A stretch of 47,703 nt of DNA, from contig JACCRC010000528.1 of the NCBI GenBank assembly GCA_013813765.1, forward strand, positions 1 through 47,703, given 5' to 3'. Origin of the DNA: Deltaproteobacteria bacterium (lineage in GTDB: Bacteria; Myxococcota_A; Polyangia; Haliangiales; Haliangiaceae). The notes beneath the pieces are model-generated. The model did no database searches. It was not told the DNA's origin and saw only the letters and a program-made list of their open reading frames with translations. A program made the position numbers and the translations under genes. Of this stretch, positions 39,843 to 47,703 are shown in pieces. The number at the start of each line of letters is the position of its first letter. Positions within the stretch are counted from its first letter, which is position 1.

Positions 39843-39910
39843 CGCCAGCGATTCTCGATCCTTGCCCTGCTGTCATGGATCTTCTTCACGGCTATGGCAC
39901 CATTTGATCC

Positions 39911-40222
39911 GTGACGCGCTGGATGCTCGCCCTGTTGATCGCCGTGTTCGCCGCGTCCTCCGTGGGTGATGCCGAGGCGCAGGCATTCAAGCCGAAGAAG
40001 ACACCCGCGAAGGGCAGCGCCGCGAAGAAGGCGCCAGCACCCGCCGCGAAGAAGGCCGCCGCTCCGCGCCGCGTGGTGACGTCGAAGAAGGCGGCCAAGA
40101 AACGTCCGAATCGCGCCGCGGAGAGCGGTCGCGCCGATGATCTGACGCCGGACGAAGGCGCGCCTTCGTCCAAGACGACGAGGGACGATGACTACGTGCT
40201 GATCGAAGACGACGACGAGTAG
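39911..40222 (+). CDS. Exported Lys/Ala/Pro-rich protein resembling a histone H1 tail
   Basis: The 103-aa protein from the GTG at 39911 has a signal peptide (LALLIAVFAASSVGDAEAQA). A repetitive basic region follows (KPKKTPAKGSAAKKAPAPAA ... KKAAKKRPNRAA), then an acidic end (DDDYVLIEDDDE). H1-like Lys/Ala/Pro repeats are common in myxobacterial DNA-binding proteins, but the signal sequence suggests this one is exported, so a role in binding wall teichoic-like or nucleic polymers outside the cytoplasm is possible (inference). The start is chosen because it produces the signal peptide; an alternative, non-exported start is not present. Confidence 0.55.
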   Translation: MTRWMLALLIAVFAASSVGDAEAQAFKPKKTPAKGSAAKKAPAPAAKKAAAPRRVVTSKKAAKKRPNRAAESGRADDLTPDEGAPSSKTTRDDDYVLIEDDDE

Positions 40223-40259
40223 CGAACGACGAAGCGTTCAGCTCGATGACGGACGTCGA

Positions 40260-40393
40260 GCGAGACCGAGCGATCCGGCGCGAGTCGGAGCGCACGCCCG
40301 GACCGCAGCGATGGCCCGTGGTGGTTCCACGGGCCGAGCGAGGACCGGACGTACGCTCCGAATCGCCCGGAGCGCGACGGTCGCAGCCGACGG
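40260..40393 (+). repeat. Intergenic repeat, copy A, with perfect hairpin
   Basis: This block lies in the 280-nt gene-free space before ftsQ and shares its outer parts with a second copy at 47476-47653: GCGAGACCGAGCG at the left end, CGCACGCCCGGA in the middle, CCGG/C-CGTACGC next, and an identical 25-nt end (40369-40393 versus 47629-47653). Between them is a hairpin GGCCCGTGG (40313-40321), loop TGGTT, CCACGGGCC (40327-40335). At the same place copy B has a hairpin of different sequence but intact pairing. No protein is apparent. The rest of the space (40394-40460) holds no named feature. Confidence 0.65.
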
Positions 40394-40460
40394 GCACGCT
40401 TGTTCAGGTCGGATACGCAGCACGCGCGTCGTCGGAAACCGAAGTGATCCGGAGCGGGTC

Positions 40461-40496
40461 AAAAAATTGCCCGGGTGATCCACGCGTGCGTATTTG
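40461..40496 (+). promoter_or_regulatory. ftsQ upstream element: A-tract, TTGCCCGGGTGATCC and -10
   Basis: AAAAAA (40461-40466) runs into TTGCCCGGGTGATCC (40467-40481), followed by TATTTG (40491-40496), 6 nt before the ATG at 40503. TTGCCC resembles a -35 with an 18-nt spacer to TATTTG. The 15-nt TTGCCCGGGTGATCC recurs exactly upstream of ftsZ, so the spacer half is probably a regulator site as well as part of the promoter. No Shine-Dalgarno precedes ftsQ. Confidence 0.6.
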
Positions 40497-40502
40497 CAGA
40501 GC

Positions 40503-41408
40503 ATGGATCGATCCCGCCGTGGGGGGAGCAGCGAGAGGACTGTCCCCGCTGAATCCCGGCTGACCGTTCGCGGGAAGAAGAACCGCAAGCGGCCGGGATC
40601 GGTGTGGTCGCGCTTGCCGCGGCCCAAGACGATCGTCGATGCGTGCGGCCGCGCGGTCCGTCGGTCGTTGCCGGCGCTCGCCGCGACCGCAGGGATCACC
40701 GTGATCGGCGCTGGTCTGTGGGCCGGCTATCGGTTCGTGACGACCTCGGAGCGGTTCGCGATCACCTCGATCGAGGTTCATGGCGAGACGCACCTGACCG
40801 ACGATCAGATCCGCGCGTCCCTGCCGGTGAAGCTCGGCGACAACGTGTTCGCGACGAACCTCGGCAAGGTCGCCGCCGCGACGCGCGCGCTGCCCTGGAT
40901 CGCCTCCGCCGAGGTCCACCGCGTCCTGCCGCATACCCTCGTCGTCGAGGTCCGCGAGCACGCACCCGTCGCGATCGTCGAGCTCGGCGAGCTCTACCTC
41001 GTCGACGCCGCCGGCCACCCGTTCAAGCGCGCCCAGCTCGAGGCCGGCGACGGTGCCGACCTGCCCGTGATCACCGGGCTCGAGCGCGCGGTCTACGAGG
41101 CTGCCCCGGGGCCGACCGCTGCCACGATCGTCGCCGCGCTCGGCGCGCTCGCGACCTGGCGCGCGGAGCCGGACCGCCCCGAGATCGGCGAGCTCCACCT
41201 CGACGCCCACCACGCACTCACGCTGCGCACCTACGAGCACGCGACCGCGATCCAGCTCGGCCAGCTCGGCCCGGAGCTGCCGGCGCGCATGCGCACGTTC
41301 GACGCCGCGTGGGCAGAGCTCTCCGAGCCCGAACGCCTCCGCGCCCGCGCGATCCACGTCGACGCGCGCATCGATCAAGTCACCGTCGCACTGAACACGA
41401 AGGACTAG
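40503..41408 (+). CDS. ftsQ: Cell-division protein FtsQ (DivIB-like)
   Basis: The 301-aa bitopic protein has a basic cytoplasmic N-terminus of about 50 residues (RGKKNRKRPGS), one helix (SLPALAATAGITVIGAGLWAGY), and a POTRA domain beginning FAITSIEVHGETHLTDDQIR. An FtsQ domain with LPWIASAEVHRVLPHTLVVEV, EHAPVAIVELGELYLVDAAG and DLPVITGLE follows. It links FtsK/FtsL/FtsB at the septum. A TTG nine bases upstream is possible, but the ATG at 40503 fits the box spacing. It is followed by ftsA after 9 nt. In the shuffled order it is separated from ddl by five unrelated genes. Confidence 0.93.
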   Translation: MDRSRRGGSSERTVPAESRLTVRGKKNRKRPGSVWSRLPRPKTIVDACGRAVRRSLPALAATAGITVIGAGLWAGYRFVTTSERFAITSIEVHGETHLTDDQIRASLPVKLGDNVFATNLGKVAAATRALPWIASAEVHRVLPHTLVVEVREHAPVAIVELGELYLVDAAGHPFKRAQLEAGDGADLPVITGLERAVYEAAPGPTAATIVAALGALATWRAEPDRPEIGELHLDAHHALTLRTYEHATAIQLGQLGPELPARMRTFDAAWAELSEPERLRARAIHVDARIDQVTVALNTKD

Positions 41409-41417
41409 AAGCACCAC

Positions 41418-42647
41418 ATGGCAAAGCCCAAGAGCAGCGAGATCATCGTCGGACTCGACATCGGCACCACCAAGATCGCCTGCATCGTCGGCGAGGTGAC
41501 CGAGGACGGCGTCGACATCATCGGCATCGGGACGTCGCCGTCGAAGGGAATGCGCCGTGGCAACGTGGTGAACATCGACGCCACCGTGCAGTCGATCCGT
41601 GCCGCGGTCGACGAGGCCGAGAACATGGCCGGTTGCGAGATCTCGAGCGTGTACGCGGCGATCTCCGGACCGAATGTCCGCGGCATCAACAACAACGGCA
41701 TCGTCGCGATCAAGGACAAGGAGATCCGCGCGAGCGACATCGCCCGCGTCCTCGAGCAGGCGAAGGCCGTCGCGATCCCGATGGATCGTGAGGTGCTCCA
41801 CGTGCTGCCGCAGCAGTACCTCGTCGACGATCAGGACGGCATCCGCGATCCGCTCGGCATGGCCGGGGTGCGGCTCGAGGCAAAGGTGCACATCGTGACC
41901 TCGCTCGTGTCCTCGGTGCAGAACGTCATCCGCTGCGCAAATCGCTGCAACCTGCAGGTCGCCGACATCGTGCTCGAGTCGCTCGCCGCATCGCAGGCCT
42001 GCCTCGAGGATGACGAGAAGGAGCTCGGCGTCGCGCTCGTCGACATCGGCGGCGGCACCTGCGACATCATGATCTACGCCGACGGCGCGATCGTGCACAC
42101 CAGCGTGATCGAGCTCGGTGGCGAGCGCGTCACGAACGACATCGCGACGCTGCTCCGCACGCCGCTCGAGGCCGCCGAGAAGCTGAAGCGCAAGTATGGC
42201 TGCGCATGGCGCGAGCTCGTCGACAACGGCGAGATGATGGAGGTCCCGTCGACCGGCGGCCGCGGTGCGCGCACGATGCCGCGGCACAAGCTCGCCGAGG
42301 TGATCGAGCCGCGGATCGAGGAGATCTTCGAGTACGTGAAGAAGGACCTGGTGCGGTCCGGCTACTACGACGCGCTCGCGGCTGGCGTGGTGCTGACGGG
42401 CGGCGCGACCGTGATGGAGGGCGTCGCCGAGATCGCCGAGCAGGTCCTCAACGTGCCCACCCGGCGCGCGGCGCCGACGAAGATCGGTGGCCTCGTCGAT
42501 GTGGTCCGCTCGCCGAGCTACTCGACCGGCGTCGGCCTCGTGATGTTCGGCGCCCAGCAGGGCAAGAGCGTGCAGCTTCCCGCTCGCGGTGAGGATCGCC
42601 CCGGCATGTTCAAGCGGGCCTGGAGCCGCCTCGCGGAGATGTTCTGA
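41418..42647 (+). CDS. ftsA: Cell-division protein FtsA
   Basis: The 409-aa actin-like ATPase tethers FtsZ to the membrane. Motifs: IIVGLDIGTTKIACIVGE (phosphate 1), the 1C insert with YAAISGPNVRGINNNG, VALVDIGGGTCDIMIYADG (phosphate 2), GGERVTNDIATLLRTPLEAAE, GVVLTGGATVMEGV (adenosine motif). The C-terminus FKRAWSRLAEMF is an amphipathic helix typical of membrane targeting. ATG at 41418, 9 nt after ftsQ. Its TGA overlaps the ATG of a 57-aa ORF (TGATG). ftsZ is not adjacent: about 2.1 kb with four other genes intervenes. Confidence 0.97.
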   Translation: MAKPKSSEIIVGLDIGTTKIACIVGEVTEDGVDIIGIGTSPSKGMRRGNVVNIDATVQSIRAAVDEAENMAGCEISSVYAAISGPNVRGINNNGIVAIKDKEIRASDIARVLEQAKAVAIPMDREVLHVLPQQYLVDDQDGIRDPLGMAGVRLEAKVHIVTSLVSSVQNVIRCANRCNLQVADIVLESLAASQACLEDDEKELGVALVDIGGGTCDIMIYADGAIVHTSVIELGGERVTNDIATLLRTPLEAAEKLKRKYGCAWRELVDNGEMMEVPSTGGRGARTMPRHKLAEVIEPRIEEIFEYVKKDLVRSGYYDALAAGVVLTGGATVMEGVAEIAEQVLNVPTRRAAPTKIGGLVDVVRSPSYSTGVGLVMFGAQQGKSVQLPARGEDRPGMFKRAWSRLAEMF

Positions 42648-42820
42648 TGGCTGACTCGCGGTCCCTGCTGCGCCCGCACCAGCTGCTCGCGCTCGTGAAG
42701 GAGCTGCGCAAGGTGGAGGGTGCCGAGCCGGTCGATCCCGAGCAGCAGCCGCTCGAGGTGGTCGATGGCGTCGAGGTGTTCGAGCGCGAGCACACGTCGG
42801 GTTCCGTCCTCGGCGGCTGA
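42647..42820 (+). CDS. 57-aa protein start-stop coupled to ftsA
   Basis: ATG at 42647 shares its A with the ftsA stop (TGATG) and opens 57 codons to a TGA at 42818-42820. The product begins MADSRSLLRPHQLLALVKEL and continues with an acidic, Glu/Val-rich half (EQQPLEVVDGVEVFERE). It is predicted soluble: an N-terminal helix with Leu on one face, then a short beta-prone segment. Codon use is that of the neighbours (G/C in third positions). No signal peptide or membrane segment. Translational coupling suggests stoichiometric expression with FtsA. Not recognised. Confidence 0.6.
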   Translation: MADSRSLLRPHQLLALVKELRKVEGAEPVDPEQQPLEVVDGVEVFEREHTSGSVLGG

Positions 42821-42835
42821 TCGTGGACGTTCGTG

Positions 42836-42841
42836 TATGGT
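42836..42841 (+). promoter_or_regulatory. -10-like hexamer TATGGT 6 nt before a start codon
   Basis: TATGGT lies 6 nt before the ATG at 42848 with no Shine-Dalgarno, in the same geometry as the next gene's TAGGGT. Confidence 0.45.
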
Positions 42842-42847
42842 CGGCGG

Positions 42848-43501
42848 ATGCTGCGTGCGTCGCTGATCCTCGGGCTGGTGGCAGTCGTGTCGCGCGCGAA
42901 CGCGGGACCGGGTCCATGGACGCTACCGATGGGGCCGGAGTGGAAGGACATCACCGCCGAGGCGATGACCGATCCCGCCATCGCGGCAGCCGCAAAGGCC
43001 GTTCGCGACAAGGGCGGCACGTTCGACGCAAAAGCCTACAACGATGACGCCAACGTGCTGTTCATCGCGGTGATCGACGTGCCCGACATCGGGCACACGA
43101 TGGCCGAGCTGAAGGCGTTCGAGTCGAGCGCCCATCGACGCGCGAACGAGGCCGGCAAGCCGCTGGACTACCGGCCCGAGCGCACGGACCTGACGCTCGG
43201 GTCCACGGAGCTCGTACAGGGTCCGGACTCGACGATCCATACGCGGCGGATCGCCGGGTTCGTCAAAGGAGCCGGCCTTCGCGCGGTGACGTTCAACTGC
43301 TACGGCGAGACGCCGCGGTGCGAGCTGCTGCTCGCGTCGGCATCGCTCGACACCTCGGCGTTCGTCAAGCTCTCGACGATCGACGCGTCGCCCAAGGAGC
43401 CCAAGCTACGGCTGATGTTCGTGGTCGCGTGCTCCGTCGTCGTCCTCCTGCTGGTCGCCGCGTACGTGATCATGAAACGCCGCCGTTCTGCGGCAGCCTG
43501 A
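42848..43501 (+). CDS. Exported protein with C-terminal membrane anchor, first of a paralogous pair
   Basis: The 217-aa protein from the ATG at 42848 has a signal peptide (MLRASLILGLVAVVSRANAG). An ectodomain follows (WTLPMGPEWKDITAEA ... HTRRIAGFVKGAGLRAVTFN) and a C-terminal helix (LMFVVACSVVVLLLVAAYVI) with a basic tail. The ectodomain contains two Cys (CYGETPRC) that align with CTGTKETC in the next gene, so they probably form a disulfide. The pair occurs between ftsA and ftsZ. A GTG 15 nt upstream would also be in frame, but the ATG fits the TATGGT spacing. Function unknown. Confidence 0.7.
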   Translation: MLRASLILGLVAVVSRANAGPGPWTLPMGPEWKDITAEAMTDPAIAAAAKAVRDKGGTFDAKAYNDDANVLFIAVIDVPDIGHTMAELKAFESSAHRRANEAGKPLDYRPERTDLTLGSTELVQGPDSTIHTRRIAGFVKGAGLRAVTFNCYGETPRCELLLASASLDTSAFVKLSTIDASPKEPKLRLMFVVACSVVVLLLVAAYVIMKRRRSAAA

Positions 43502-43506
43502 TCGTG

Positions 43507-43512
43507 TAGGGT
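43507..43512 (+). promoter_or_regulatory. -10-like hexamer TAGGGT 6 nt before a start codon
   Basis: TAGGGT is followed by 6 nt and the ATG at 43519. The sequence around it parallels the upstream paralogue's start. Confidence 0.45.
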
Positions 43513-43518
43513 CGCGCC

Positions 43519-44133
43519 ATGGCGCGCTGGTGGACGATCACGATCCCTTCCGGGTACACGGACGTCACGGAGGAGGCGAAGCAGGCGCCGCAGATGGCGC
43601 AGGTGCTCCAGAAGACGCGCGAGAAGGGCGGCGTCCTCGAGATGCAGCTCCACCAGAGCGCGGACGGCGAGAACCTGATCGTCCTCGACAGCACGTTCCG
43701 CGACATGCCGGTGACGAAGGCCACGCTCGACGGCTTCGAGGAGGGCGCGCGCGGCACCTCGTTCGGCACGGGGCGGCAGCTCACGTATCACATCGACTAC
43801 ACGCCGACGATGGTGGTCGGGACGCAGCAGACGAGCGCGCCCGACGGCACGATCGTCTGGCACAAGCGGTGGACGGGCTTTGGCAAGGACGAGCAACTGA
43901 AGAGCCTCGCGATCGGCTGCACCGGCACGAAGGAGACGTGCCAGCCGATCTTCGACTCGGTCATCGTCGAGCCGTTCCAGTTCAAGGCCGTCGCCTCGCT
44001 CGCGAAGGGCAGCTCCGGCGGCGGCGATGACACGGCGTACAAGATCGGTCAGGCCGTCGGCGTGGGCCTCGTGTGCGCGATCGTGCTCGCGCTCGTCGCG
44101 CGGAGCCGCAAGAAGTCAGCGGCAAACCGGTAG
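43519..44133 (+). CDS. Membrane-anchored paralogue of the preceding gene, without signal peptide
   Basis: The 204-aa protein begins MARWWTITIPSGYTDVTEEA and lines up along its length with the previous product: WT(I/L)..P.G(Y/W)xD(V/I)TxEA at the start, a KGG-(V/T)-(L/F) block, a (T/R)..(R/W)(I/T)GF segment, Cys-x6-Cys (CTGTKETC), and a C-terminal helix (AVGVGLVCAIVLALVARSR) with a basic end. No signal peptide is seen, so topology may differ (the helix alone anchors it) or the true N-terminus may be missing. The last 18 bp overlap the convergent lipoprotein gene. Function unknown. Confidence 0.7.
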   Translation: MARWWTITIPSGYTDVTEEAKQAPQMAQVLQKTREKGGVLEMQLHQSADGENLIVLDSTFRDMPVTKATLDGFEEGARGTSFGTGRQLTYHIDYTPTMVVGTQQTSAPDGTIVWHKRWTGFGKDEQLKSLAIGCTGTKETCQPIFDSVIVEPFQFKAVASLAKGSSGGGDDTAYKIGQAVGVGLVCAIVLALVARSRKKSAANR

Positions 44134-44697
44134 CGGCGCGCCGGCGTACACGGTCGCGGTCGCCGGATCGATCTGCATCGTGCCCGCGGGCTTCTCGAGC
44201 ACGACGAACACGCGATCGAACCAGGGCAACACCATCGCGACGGTGCCGGGCATCGTGAACGTGCCGGCGCGCTTCAGGGCGACCGGATCGGCGACCTGGA
44301 CCTTGGTGCCCTGGTATGCGACGACAGCGCCGGGCTCGATCACGTCGAGCCGATCCCCGGGGGAGCCGACCGGAATCGACTGACCGGTCTCGGTGTTCCG
44401 CAGCGTCCACTGGCCGGAGGGATCTCGGGCCACCACCCGGCCGGTTCCGACCTGGCGGTCCTGCTGGACCTGGGGCGGTGGGCGCGGAGGGGTGGTCGTC
44501 GTCGGAGCGGTCGGTTTGCCGTCGCGATCGAGGATCACGCACGTGGCCTCGACACAGACGATCGCCTTGCCATTCGAGATCACGCCGTAGGCAGATCCCT
44601 GGGCGGGCACGCAGAGCTCGGTGGGGGGATCTGCTCTCTTCGACGAGCACGAGCACCCGACGAGGAACACGATGATCGCGGCACGAGCTGTGCTCAT
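44116..44697 (-). CDS. Lipoprotein of unknown function, divergent from ftsZ
   Basis: The 193-aa protein from the ATG at 44697 begins [20 protein letters not shown] (lipobox LVGC). The mature part has short strands ([21 protein letters not shown]), a Thr/Pro-rich linker, and a second beta-rich part ([17 protein letters not shown] ... [20 protein letters not shown]). The frame is open to 44799, but the signal peptide sets the start. The 91-nt space to ftsZ contains the ftsZ promoter. The 3' end overlaps the anchored paralogue gene. Function unknown. Confidence 0.65.
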
Positions 44698-44747
44698 CGA
44701 ACCCACATCTTCCGTCGAAAAATGCGCGAACGGCTCAGCTTCGCAAC

Positions 44748-44783
44748 AAAAAGTTGCCCGGGTGATCCGCGCCCTTTCATATG
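44748..44783 (+). promoter_or_regulatory. ftsZ upstream element sharing TTGCCCGGGTGATCC with ftsQ
   Basis: AAAAAG (44748-44753) runs into TTGCCCGGGTGATCC (44754-44768), identical to the ftsQ element, then TCATAT (44777-44782) 6 nt before the ATG at 44789. Over 25 positions (A-tract to CGC) ftsQ and ftsZ differ at two bases. A 17-nt spacer separates TTGCCC from TCATAT. GGGG at 44783-44786 is only 2 nt from the start, too close for a normal ribosome-binding site. Confidence 0.6.
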
Positions 44784-44788
44784 GGGCC

Positions 44789-46207
44789 ATGGCACTCATC
44801 GAATTCGACGACGTCAGTCACGCGAAGATCCTCGTCATCGGTGTCGGCGGCGGCGGAGGCAACGCGGTCAACACGATGATCAGCGGCAACCTCGACGGCG
44901 TCGAGTTCGTGGTGGCGAACACCGACCTCCAGGCCCTCGAGGCCAACATGGCGCCTCACAAGATCCCGCTGGGCAGCTCGCTCACGAAGGGGCTGGGTGC
45001 CGGCGCGAACCCCGAGGTGGGTCGCCGCTCGGCCGAGGAGAGCATGCAGCAGATCGCCGACCTCATCTCGGGCGCCGACATGGTGTTCGTGACGGCGGGC
45101 ATGGGCGGCGGCACGGGCACCGGCGCGGCGCCGGTGATCGCGCAGATCGCCCGCGACTGTGGTGCGCTGACGGTCGGCGTCGTGACGAAGCCGTTCGGCT
45201 TCGAAGGCAAGAAGCGCGCGCGCCAGGCCGTCGAAGGCATCGAGCGTCTGTCGGCCTCGGTCGACACGCTGCTCGTCATTCCGAACAACCGCCTGCTCGC
45301 CCTCGTCGGCGCGCAGACGTCGATGGTCGAGGCATTCCGCAAGGCGGATTCCGTGCTGCTCAACGCGGTGCAGGGCATCAGCGATCTGATGACGGTCCCC
45401 GGTCTCGTCAACGTCGACTTCGCCGACGTGCGTACGATCATGAAGGACATGGGCCGCGCGCTCATGGGCTCGGGAATCGGCACCGGCAAGCGCCGCGCGC
45501 AGGAAGCCGCGGAGATGGCGATCAGCTCGCCGCTCCTCGAGGACGTCAACATCGAGGGCGCGACGGGCATCCTGATCAACATCACCGGCGGCCCGGACCT
45601 CACGCTGCACGAGGTCAACGAGGCGTCGTCGCTGATCGAGGCCGCGGCGCACGAGGACGCGAACATCATCTTCGGCTCGGTGATCGATCCGAACCTGACC
45701 GAGGAGATCCGGATCACCGTGATCGCCACCGGCTTCGACCGCGAGGCGAAGACGCAGATGCTGGTGCCCGAGCCGACGAAGACGCCGGTACAGTCCGCGC
45801 CGACCGGTGGCCGCCGCCTCAGCGCCGCGCAGATCATCCTGCCGTACGACGTGTCGACGCAGGTCACGAAGGAGTACCCGGCTCCGCGCCCGCCGGTGCG
45901 GCAGTCCGCGCAGGTCGTCGCCGACGAGCCCGACATCGACGTGACGTGGGACGAGCGCGAGGGCATGCACGAGCAGAGCGAGGTCGAGCGCGCGCTCGCC
46001 GAGCTCTCGAAGCCGATCCCCGAGGACGCCGCTCGCATGGCGTCTGGATCCGGACCCGCGCCGTCGAACGGCGAGGTGCTGGTCCAGCCCGAGCGCAAGC
46101 GCGCGCAGTCGCGGCCGAGCATGAAGGCCGTGCTCTCCGGCGAGATCGATACCGACAACGAGCTCGACGTGCCGGCGTTCATCCGCCGCCACGGCGCTCA
46201 TCAATAG
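44789..46207 (+). CDS. ftsZ: Cell-division GTPase FtsZ
   Basis: The 472-aa tubulin homologue forms the division ring. Motifs: [18 protein letters not shown] (N-terminal nucleotide loop), [30 protein letters not shown] (tubulin signature), [17 protein letters not shown] with the T7 catalytic Asp region. The C-terminal linker (about 325-455) is long and Pro/Glu-rich, ending in [12 protein letters not shown], which matches the conserved terminal peptide that binds FtsA. The frame is open from 44621, but the ATG at 44789 starts the protein at MALIEFDD and fits the promoter. It is transcribed from its own element and followed by a hairpin terminator. Confidence 0.98.
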
Positions 46208-46304
46208 GTTCGTGCTCGGCGCCACCCGGCGCGCGCATCACCCGGTGCGGAGCAGGTGATTTAAGACTCTCCCTAGCGCTGACCTCACCTCAGCGGCGAT
46301 TCAA

Positions 46305-46335
46305 GAGGCCCCGATCCTGGGGCCTCGATCGTTTT
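46305..46335 (+). terminator. Probable intrinsic terminator after ftsZ
   Basis: GAGGCCCC (46305-46312), loop GATCCT, GGGGCCTC (46319-46326) is a perfect 8-bp hairpin about 100 nt after the ftsZ stop. GATCGTTTT follows, so the T-tract is short and displaced by 5 nt. Strong stem, weak tail. The rest of 46208-46304 shows nothing recognisable. Confidence 0.6.
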
Positions 46336-46341
46336 CGGGGG

Positions 46342-46347
46342 TATCTC
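46342..46347 (+). promoter_or_regulatory. -10-like hexamer TATCTC 7 nt before a start codon
   Basis: TATCTC is followed by 7 nt and the ATG at 46355, directly after the ftsZ terminator. No Shine-Dalgarno is seen. Confidence 0.45.
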
Positions 46348-46354
46348 TAGGCGC

Positions 46355-47167
46355 ATGAAGATCACGCTCCTCGCGCTCCTCTGCATGACCACCGCCGCCG
46401 TGGCGCAGCCCGCCGACAAGAAGCCGGCGGTGAAGGTGAAGACGATCGTCACCTGGTACGGCCACGCGGCGTTCAAGATCGAGACGCCGGGCGGCAAGAC
46501 GATCCTCGTCGATCCGTGGCTCACGAATCCGACGAACCCGACCGGCAAAGACGACGTGAAGGCGGTGAAGGCCGACCTGATCCTGGTCACGCACGGGCAC
46601 TTCGATCACATCGGTGATGCGACCGAGATCGCGAAGCGCACGAAGGCGAAGCTCGTGGCGACGTTCGATCTCGGCAACGCGCTCGTCGGCAGCGGCTACC
46701 CGAAGGATCAGTTCGGCTTCGATACCGGCGGCAACTTCGGCGGAACGATCACCGCGCTCGACGGCGAGGTCGCGGTCACGTTTGTTCCTGCGGTGCACTC
46801 GAGCACGCTCGGCGAGGCGCCGAACACGAAGCCCGGCGGAAACCCCGGCGGCTTCGTCATCGCCGTCAAGAACGGCCCGACGCTCTATCACACGGGCGAC
46901 ACCGACGTGTTCGGCGACATGGCGCAGATCGGAAAGTTCGCGAAGATCGATCTGATGCTCGCCTGCATTGGCGACCACTTCACGATGGGTCCCGACCGCG
47001 CGGCGGAGGCGGTGAAGCTCGTGAAGCCGAAGCAGGTCGTGCCGATGCACTTCGGCACGTTCCCGGTGCTCAAGGGAACGCCCGCGGACTTCGCGAAGGC
47101 GGTGAAGAAGGCGGGCGCGGCCGCGAAGATCGTCGAGCTGAAGATCGGAACGTCGATCACGCTGTGA
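46355..47167 (+). CDS. Exported UPF0173-type metallo-beta-lactamase-fold hydrolase
   Basis: The 270-aa protein has a signal peptide (ITLLALLCMTTAAVAQP). A metallo-beta-lactamase fold begins VTWYGHAAFKIETPGGKTI, with metal ligands in VTHGHFDHIGD, a later His in VPAVHSS, an Asp in LYHTGDTDVFGD and a His in PMHFGTFPVL. The pattern matches the UPF0173/UlaG-like group, most of whose members are cytoplasmic with unknown substrates. A signal peptide is unusual for that group. ATG at 46355. It lies alone between ftsZ and a small lipoprotein, and its substrate is unknown. Confidence 0.85.
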   Translation: MKITLLALLCMTTAAVAQPADKKPAVKVKTIVTWYGHAAFKIETPGGKTILVDPWLTNPTNPTGKDDVKAVKADLILVTHGHFDHIGDATEIAKRTKAKLVATFDLGNALVGSGYPKDQFGFDTGGNFGGTITALDGEVAVTFVPAVHSSTLGEAPNTKPGGNPGGFVIAVKNGPTLYHTGDTDVFGDMAQIGKFAKIDLMLACIGDHFTMGPDRAAEAVKLVKPKQVVPMHFGTFPVLKGTPADFAKAVKKAGAAAKIVELKIGTSITL

Positions 47168-47181
47168 CACAGAGGCTGTGG

Positions 47182-47187
47182 TAGGAC
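47182..47187 (+). promoter_or_regulatory. -10-like hexamer TAGGAC 6 nt before a start codon
   Basis: TAGGAC is followed by 6 nt and the ATG at 47194. It lies in the 26-nt gap after the hydrolase gene. Confidence 0.4.
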
Positions 47188-47193
47188 GAGGCC

Positions 47194-47448
47194 ATGCGCA
47201 TCTTCGCCGTCTCTGCCGCTCTGATCGTCGGTCTCATCGCGTGCTCCGGTCCTTCGAAGAAGAAGACCGAGATCGGCGCCACGGAAGGGTCCGATCAGGC
47301 CGGTGAGACCTGCTGCTGCAAGTCCAACCCGATCGCCGCCAATGACGGCCAGCCGATCTACGAGGTCGGCAACCGGATGGAGTGCTCGTCGAAGCAGGGC
47401 GAGTGCGTGCCCGACGTGCAGTGCGCGCAGGCCGCGCAGCCCGAGTAA
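47194..47448 (+). CDS. Small Cys-rich lipoprotein
   Basis: The 84-aa protein begins MRIFAVSAALIVGLIACSGP (lipobox LIAC). The mature part is Lys/Thr-rich, then has six or more Cys including a CCC run (GETCCCKSNPIAA, MECSSKQGECVPDVQCAQ), so disulfide-linked. It resembles other small Cys-rich lipoproteins of this window in style but not in sequence. No function is recognised. Confidence 0.7.
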   Translation: MRIFAVSAALIVGLIACSGPSKKKTEIGATEGSDQAGETCCCKSNPIAANDGQPIYEVGNRMECSSKQGECVPDVQCAQAAQPE

Positions 47449-47475
47449 GGGGCGAGAGGTGCGGCCCAGCGCGGC

Positions 47476-47653
47476 GCGAGACCGAGCGGCGCGAGGCGGA
47501 TCGGGGCGCACGCCCGGAAGCGGAGCGAGAGCGCGTCCTTGCTGGACGCGCCGAGTGAGAACCGGCCGTACGCCACGAGTTGGCCCCTGCGAGCGGCGAA
47601 GCTGCGAGCTGCAACCACGTCGCTGCGCGGAGCGCGACGGTCGCAGCCGACGG
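47476..47653 (+). repeat. Intergenic repeat, copy B, with a covarying hairpin
   Basis: Second copy of the element at 40260-40393. GCGAGACCGAGCG is followed at the same distance by CGCACGCCCGGA, then a hairpin GCGCGTCC (47531-47538), loop TTGCT, GGACGCGC (47544-47551), then CCGGCCGTACGC. A stretch of about 45 nt absent from copy A comes next, and the shared 25-nt end is at 47629-47653. The stem bases differ from copy A but pair perfectly. The remainder of the window (47654-47703) and 47449-47475 show no gene. Confidence 0.65.
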
Positions 47654-47703
47654 ACTGGTGAATGATCCGGGCTAGCACTGACCGCGCGCGCAACCGCAGC
47701 GAA

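Follow-up and report, generated by a model that had tools for sequence, protein, structure and literature searches.

The window analysed here (47,703 nt) contains two similar intergenic stretches, and the question raised by this locus is what kind of repeat they represent and whether pairing that persists through sequence change reflects selection on an RNA structure. The initial annotation described two copies, each with conserved ends around a central hairpin, and offered a structured RNA or a non-autonomous mobile repeat as explanations. At 40260 and 47476 the shared left end of 13 nt is present as described, as are the blocks GCGCACGCCCGGA and CCGG.CGTACGC, whereas the exact right end comprises 26 nt by alignment, not 25. 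Apical stems were also found as claimed, of 9 bp in copy A (40313-40321/40327-40335) and of 8 bp in copy B. Copy A and its site consist of the following features:

40220..40222, plus strand: TAG that terminates the small gene lying upstream (39911-40222)
about 40223-40252, plus strand: degraded left outer arm of copy A, in which GAAC..AAGCG and CGCTTGTTC match in part, as judged from the sequence
40256..40391, plus strand: complete core hairpin of copy A, scoring 127.9 bits with R1, a model built from 30 sequences that include copy A
40259..40264, plus strand: left side of the conserved outer internal loop, AGCGAG, flanked by CGTCG (40254-40258) and ACCG (40265-40268)
40313..40335, plus strand: apical stem-loop of copy A, GGCCCGTGG / TGGTT / CCACGGGCC, the stem of the initial annotation
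40382..40387, plus strand: right side of the conserved outer internal loop, CGCAGC, flanked by CGGT (40378-40381) and CGACG (40388-40392)

Open reading frames do overlap copy A, for example 40246-40563.

Full copies are represented by a single hairpin of 169-206 nt between the edges, in which a variable outer arm, a conserved loop, a conserved core and a variable tip follow one another from the outside in; the core and, in most copies, the outer arms form one continuous hairpin. The repeat itself is real, but larger than first described: tip stems exist, but the 8-9-bp stem taken for a central hairpin is merely the tip of the larger one, and the conserved ends, formerly regarded as separate blocks, pair mutually within it. 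Two C.A mismatches are retained, at columns 62/146 in 36 of 38 copies and at columns 66/142 in 33 of 38. The element appears to be non-coding, judging from the pairing and from single-base indels, and like bacterial palindromic MITEs it is short, multi-copy and built of inverted repeats.

The alignment of 38 copies was obtained from 47 candidate full copies, picked for diversity out of 72 non-redundant profile hits, the last few of which are reverse-strand echoes; a smaller alignment comprised 30 of the 38 copies. In the larger alignment, 95.2% of 2145 cells are paired, against 28-36% in slid controls, and double-sided changes occur at 41 of 57 pairs. The covariation score is 0.522, compared with 0.161 in shuffled and at most 0.102 in slid controls, and pairing conserved despite sequence change, claimed originally from two copies, therefore holds over 38.

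The second copy lies at the end of the contig, where the following features were found:

47446-47448, plus strand: TAA stop of a small lipoprotein-like gene
47449..47474, plus strand: left outer arm (26 nt) of a probable real second element, beginning immediately 3' of the TAA stop
47472..47606, plus strand: core of copy B as assembled, 67.1 bits with R1
47655..47675, plus strand: right end in copy B, CTGGTGAATGATCCGGGCTAG, arm type T4, showing no pairing with the left arm of copy B itself

The left arm has its exact complement at positions 63-88 of contig C390 and nowhere within the window, the longest exact complement between the two halves of copy B is 7 nt, and the gene order of relatives places C390 beyond the end of the window. 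For these reasons, copy B, which ends 50 nt before the contig end, is very probably an assembly chimera and not one element; its left half is probably genuine and its right half derived from another copy.

Search of the 8.1-Mb genome with copy B as the query found copy A at E=1.7e-11; further matches were located in C427, C373, C216 (left half), C390 (right half) and C238 (short), the latter being a full copy when searched with copy A. Clear matches are present in 12 of 56 genomes, including the own genome, with G032, G043 and G045 (E of 6e-4 to 1e-3) set aside, or in 15 if these are counted. A covariance model gave matches in 20 of the 289 genomes of the class, again including the own genome. 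Copy numbers per genome are lower bounds, since at most 14 candidates per genome were scored in the set of 56 and at most 11 in the set of 289; G019, a 99% complete genome, contains at least 11 model hits in the latter. The match to copy A, the occurrence in several genomes and the pairing over 38 copies rule out that these are GC-rich spacers alike by chance. Among the named stretches carrying the core motif, 46 of 63 belong to Kofleriaceae, Myxococcales or 'Deltaproteobacteria', and the host group is one of soil and water bacteria. The core pattern was absent from viral contigs; in the plasmid and phage collections the whole T2 element had no match, and the T4 arm and T4 element gave no more than weak scattered matches, in plasmids. 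In some distant copies (G122, G127) the outer arms are not convincing, and the consensus fold of the distant alignment, with 24 pairs, retains the core incompletely.

Comparison of orthologous sites showed both presence and absence of the element. The region upstream of ftsQ lacks copy A in all 12 readable relatives (14 loci fetched), and a profile search of these loci gave no match to the element. A non-coding RNA in a fixed ftsQ leader was ruled out on this basis. An empty site for locus L073 was found in G029; the right-hand gene of L073 seems short of its last codons, so that the event was apparently not a clean insertion. The gene pair formed by the lipoprotein gene and the gene on C390 is devoid of the element in G003, G004 and G013, and presence or absence was thereby seen at three sites (A, L073 and B/C390). 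The absence of copy A from all 12 relatives, together with the other empty site, argues that the element is mobile and not a fixed ftsQ leader. TA is present at both edges of many copies, and readable ancestral sites mostly had a TGA stop. The ancestral TGA would not represent a clean TA or CTAG target, and mobility is read here from the sites, not from observed transposition.

According to gene calls made by our own base-composition rules, no gene finder being involved, 33 of 76 copy sides face the 3' end of a gene and 15 the 5' end. TAG occurs at 40 of 76 edges, and at 16 of these 40 the edge TAG is precisely where a coding-like frame of 60 codons or more stops, while no such frame reaches the TAG out of phase. 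The count of 16 follows a fixed rule that leaves out the borderline L032; it is 14 in the separate gene-position count. At five more edges, all non-TAG, a coding-like frame runs up to the edge. Arm types recur among the copies: the T2 left arm is identical at 18 of 18 positions between L292 (f18) and L037 (f1), the cores of which share 82 of 125 positions, and at 15 of 18 between L293 and L037. Different cores were found inside the same arms, namely T2 arms in G024 and T4 arms in G034; R1 gave a best E of 0.063 on the loci L119 and L122-L124 (G034) and L188-L192 (G024), so that their cores are not convincingly of the same family. Arms and cores appear to reassort, which would be unusual.

The folding as one hairpin, the unrelated sites, the absence in relatives, the bias toward gene 3' ends and the edge TAG stops together suggest that the element is probably a non-autonomous mobile palindrome of a new, modular family, foldback MITE-like, of about 170-210 nt and without an obvious gene. 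Of the two candidates initially offered, the mobile repeat is the one that fits. Two sub-cases of mobility, both in line with this reading, concern the enzyme involved. As a DDE-transposase MITE, the element could carry as its arms the terminal inverted repeats of several different insertion sequences that target TA or YTAR, the shared core being a passenger palindrome; this is possible, but less likely than not. The TA or TAG at both edges of many copies and the recurrence of arm types with divergent cores are consistent with it, but the ancestral TGA stops are unlike a simple TA duplication, and the pattern search for T2, T3 and T4 ends revealed no autonomous copy. G019 contains T2 ends 25 times in forward and 23 times in reverse orientation (up to 2 mismatches), including two inverted pairs spaced by 0.6 kb on C79 and by 2.3 kb on C32; no transposase family was detected between them, and the protein found in the C32 stretch is a repeat protein whose domains are InlB-type and glycine-rich. 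In 9 viral contigs, T4 ends showed no inverted second end (up to 3 mismatches), and Pfam analysis of 9 open reading frames near or between ends (L194, L206, L119, L123, L116, L315, L312) detected no transposase family; no transposase partner was found for the element in these searches. Movement of a REPIN- or REP-like single-stranded DNA hairpin by RAYT, a Y1 tyrosine transposase, is rather doubtful. The hairpin with conserved irregularities and its 3'-end location agree with such movement, as do REP dimers within long palindromes, reported in PMC3733652, and Y1_Tnp matches in 8 of the 9 genomes searched. However, the copy-rich G019 has no Y1_Tnp (RAYT-type) match at E<=0.001, and none of 30 inspected Y1_Tnp loci, of 63 matches, has an element profile hit in its flanks; no RAYT partner was found in these searches. 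In many copies the outer loop follows a CGTC, but this is paired, the unit is far longer than the 20-40 nt of a REP hairpin, and a consistent GTAG tag was not noticed in an informal look.

Two further explanations account for the pairing itself. Selection of a structured RNA or UTR element, one of the candidates in the initial annotation, for its RNA fold is unlikely. Besides the covariation, it agrees with slightly better plus-strand folding of 26 of 38 copies (RNA parameters; plus favoured by 2.8 kcal/mol on average, p=0.009, copies being treated as independent) and with an excess of G-U over A-C in the contiguous outer helix of the plus strand (27 vs 11, p=0.014, treating as independent cells that are not). 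However, this modest lean is equally strong with DNA parameters (32 of 38) and absent from the core, where the minus strand folds better in 17 of 38 copies; both conserved mismatches read C.A on the plus strand and become wobble pairs on the minus strand alone, and the element is not retained at orthologous genes. Rfam gave 5 matches in 39900-47703, none at the gathering score (best MIR1151, 40.9 bits against a cut-off of 90), and no terminator-like site was found at 40150-40560. The arms change in matched blocks where cores are nearly identical: L033 and L057 (core identity 97.8%) differ by 7 double-sided changes and 1 single-sided change, single-sided changes predominate in other close pairs, and all 40 close pairs, which are non-independent, show 82 double-sided and 51 single-sided changes. 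Concerted rewriting of DNA arms fits these changes as well as selection does. Template switching in a quasi-palindrome, a mechanism known for imperfect palindromes (PMC7202029, PMC8604942), would yield such blocks, but that it alone maintains the pairing, without selection, is improbable, since core mismatches and loop positions escape homogenisation and are unchanged in 33-37 of 38 copies.

For the mobile palindrome, a trans-acting enzyme would recognize the single strand once folded, or else the arms once paired, reading in the core the conserved internal loops and the two C.A mismatches, with the arms as a second, exchangeable module. One or two transcripts would carry the inserted hairpin within their 3' end, and there it could restrict read-through or shield the mRNA; template switching between arms at the DNA level probably helps to keep them matched. 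More tentatively, it may be a modular mobile hairpin with interchangeable arm pairs, each perhaps read by a recombinase of its own, and a structural core common to several bacterial families. Its arms would be rewritten in concert, and its edges would supply TAG stops, so that a gene receiving an insertion at its end stays properly terminated.

If correct, this adds a widespread repeat family to Myxococcota, makes arm and core reassortment a natural test of which features are read by a hairpin-recognising transposase, and shows how a mobile element can settle at stop codons without harm to the gene. It would also caution that covariation within a repeat need not imply RNA function, and that such hairpins can break metagenome assemblies, leaving chimeric contig ends.

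Among known systems, integron attC sites are imperfect hairpins with unpaired conserved bases and a variable tip, located after stop codons; the element resembles these sites but, unlike attC sites in cassette arrays, occurs mostly as single copies. Independent variation of arms and core and use of the edge TAG as a stop, both seen in the element, are not known from other palindromic MITE families; no related insertion sequence was found. The element has in common with ERIC/IRU, RUP, Nemis, Nezha and other palindromic MITEs that all are short, gene-free, multi-copy inverted repeats adjoining coding sequences, as summarized in the background of PMC3733652. Like the element, REP, BIME and REPIN sequences are, according to PMC3733652, palindromes that adjoin the 3' ends of genes, in many cases where two genes converge, and some REP dimers lie in long palindromes. 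The element differs in being an unbroken hairpin some 170-210 nt long and, as noted, was not found in the flanks of the 30 Y1_Tnp loci inspected, nor does G019 have a Y1_Tnp match. TIRtrons/TIRYT are described there as long inverted repeat families adjoining tyrosine transposases; some Y1_Tnp loci here do have inverted repeats, but these are other than the arms of the element.

Two copies of the element are located at 40260–40393, upstream of ftsQ (copy A), and at 47476–47653, near the contig end (copy B), as the initial annotation had placed them; sequence reading and alignment recovered the shared blocks and both tip stems. The pairing that it had seen persisting while the sequence changes is real, but the stem it described is only the apical part of a hairpin spanning the whole element. 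On folding, full copies form one single hairpin, and in 38 aligned copies the length between edges, defined by alignment columns, is 169–206 nt (median 182). From the outside inwards, the hairpin consists of the following parts:

Edge, outermost: TAG at 40 of 76 edges
Outer arm, inside the edge: about 16–20 bp
Short stem, inside the outer arm: CGTCG or similar
Conserved internal loop, inside the short stem: AGCGAG versus CGCAGC in the type of the window's own genome (G000)
Core stem, inside the conserved internal loop: two conserved C.A mismatches
Inner loop, inside the core stem: GCAGCGA versus GAGCGAG
Apical stem, innermost: variable; the part noticed in the initial annotation

Compensatory pairs are abundant. 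The 38-copy alignment (MAFFT, RNAalifold) contains 57 pairs, 41 of them with at least one double-sided change that keeps pairing, and double-sided variation is seen at each of the 17 outer-helix pairs. Pairing is retained in 95.2% of 2145 paired cells versus 75.2% after shuffling and 28–36% with partners slid by 1–3 columns, the scored structure being derived from the same sequences and hence biased in its favour relative to the slid versions; double-sided cells number 412 versus 128 in shuffled data. The plus strand of the whole element folds modestly better in 26 (RNA parameters) or 32 (DNA parameters) of the 38 copies, and the core alone shows no such advantage. No terminator-like site was found at 40150–40560.

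In copies with cores at least 93% identical, arm changes are double-sided in 82 cases and single-sided in 51 (40 non-independent pairs). The arms of loci L033 and L057 differ at seven matched positions and one unmatched, those of L049 and L059 at none matched and three unmatched, and some close pairs have single-sided changes only. Such a pattern points to whole arms being rewritten together in some lineages, so covariation in this element does not on its own prove an RNA function.

When the genome containing the window (8.1 Mb in 562 contigs, 88% complete) was searched with copy B, copy A was recovered at E=1.7e-11. Contigs C427 and C373 gave additional matches, C216 carries a left half, and C390 begins with a right half; contig C238 gave a short match with copy B and a full copy with copy A. 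Chance similarity of the two copies is ruled out by these matches.

A blastn search with copy A gave 15 of 56 genomes, of which G032, G043 and G045 were set aside, leaving clear copies in 12, including the window's own; G028 has at least 14 matches and G019 at least 10, and one of the two matches in G003 covers flanking DNA only. The covariance model R1, built from 30 copies, matched 20 of the 289 class genomes, the window's own included, with full-length matches in families f2, f4, f14, f18 and f22; its E-values are rough, the weakest genome having 4.6e-5. In named genomes, the core motif occurs in 63 stretches, 46 of them in records of Kofleriaceae, Myxococcales or 'Deltaproteobacteria'. The other 17, for example in Streptomyces and Treponema, are probably due to chance, since none is among the profile hits to the element. 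The core motif had no match in viral contigs, nor did a whole element with T2 arms (T1–T4 denote outer arm types) in plasmid and phage collections.

Presence and absence at particular loci were observed repeatedly. Fourteen ftsQ loci of relatives were fetched, two of them too short to read; the upstream region lacks the element in all 12 readable ones, and a profile search of these loci gave no hit. The closest relative, G003, retains the flank GCACGCTTGTTCAGGTCGGAT at the empty site. The block AAAAAATTGCCC..GTGATC..GCGTGCGTATTTGC..ATGGATCGATC before the ftsQ start (40443–40503), which by eye is conserved across most of these 12 relatives from the same genus, could be the promoter of a nearly leaderless mRNA; a consensus promoter scan reports none there. 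The convergent genes around the element at L073 (G028) abut directly in G029 and are separated by other sequence in G026, and the site between the lipoprotein gene and the C390 gene is empty in G003, G004 and G013. The left gene at L087 (G019) is common to six sister genomes; on this side, which was the one compared, similarity stops at the stop codon, where G019 carries TAG and the element. No clean empty site was obtained for L058.

A different repeat of ~260 nt, with many copies in G026 (e.g., C383, C454) and relatives, matches L087:1704–1971, right of the G019 element. At L084 and L163 of G019, two copies of the element lie close together (482 and 324 nt apart). Several copies in this genome (L082–L085) have about 50 nt of left flank in common, so the element seems to be part of a larger repeat unit there.

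The element is biased towards gene 3' ends: 33 of 76 sides face 3' ends and 15 face 5' ends, the rest being far from genes or uncalled. At 16 of 40 TAG edges the TAG is the exact end of a coding-like frame (defined by base composition and a length of at least 60 codons), with no out-of-phase coding-like frame at any of the 40; at five non-TAG edges such a frame runs up to the edge. A separate gene heuristic gave 14 exact gene ends on an edge TAG, and at L036, L058 and L073 both neighbouring genes end on the two edges. Because orthologues of the left genes at L087 and L073 stop at the same codon with TGA, once with TAA, the edge TAG seems either to be brought by the element or to have taken the place of the earlier stop.

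Copy B is probably composite. Its 26-nt left arm has an exact complement at C390:63–88 and none in the window, the longest exact complement between its own halves being 7 nt; the right half bears a T4 arm and ends 28 nt short of the contig end. A homologue of the small gene preceding copy B flanks the C390-gene orthologue in 8 of 9 relatives: by reading, the two are adjacent in G003, G004 and G013, their stops 0 to about 55 nt apart, and are separated by about 0.7 kb in G007. The C390 gene of G013 lies about 4.4 kb past ftsQ on the same contig. From the arm complement and gene order, the window (C425) and C390 are probably neighbours separated by a single element, the right half of copy B having probably been joined on from another copy in assembly; less probably, copy B may have arisen by real recombination.

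Judging from arm types recurring around different cores, arms and cores seem to have partly separate histories. The T2 left arm is identical (18/18) between f18 (L290, L292) and f1 (L087, L037), the cores of these copies sharing 80–82 of 125 positions; L293 (f18) matches the L037 arm at 15/18. Within f1, L037 and L003 share 7/18 arm and 85/125 core positions. T2 arms in G024 and T4 arms in G034 surround different cores without convincing R1 matches; R1-type cores occur in G034 as well, some between T4-like arms and some between others. The different core in G024 (L188–L192) contains the REP-like stretches CCCTGAGCGAGG and GTCGAAGGGCG, and several contigs of this genome start with such a T2-type end. 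Minimal copies of about 60–70 nt, with arms kept and the core almost gone, occur at L194:2910–2965 (G019:C32) and L123 (G034), the former consistent with a deletion between two GTCGC repeats. A T4-armed copy, L120 (G015:C100), has lost the core tip and has an extra stretch.

The element would be moved by an enzyme acting in trans, which might recognize the arms, the core through its conserved loops and mismatches, or the two together. Matches to the tyrosine transposase domain Y1_Tnp (63 in all) were found in eight of nine genomes searched, G019 having none; the element was absent from the flanks at the 30 loci inspected. Some of these loci bear other inverted repeats: at L258, L259, L263 and L266, the match is surrounded by long imperfect ones (70–165 nt), which seem to form a repeat family of their own in the same hosts. 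G019 contains 48 T2 ends at up to two mismatches (reversed control, 0), including two inverted pairs spaced 0.6 and 2.3 kb; no transposase family was found between either pair, the one on C32 enclosing a repeat protein and that on C79 short ORFs without a transposase family.

No earlier description of the element family was found within the literature searched, including for palindromic MITEs in Myxococcota, and the term 'myxococc' is absent from the main text of PMC3733652. The same text describes REP families and their 3'-end location, and reports REP dimers inside long palindromes and tyrosine transposases associated with TIRs (PMC3733652, main text).
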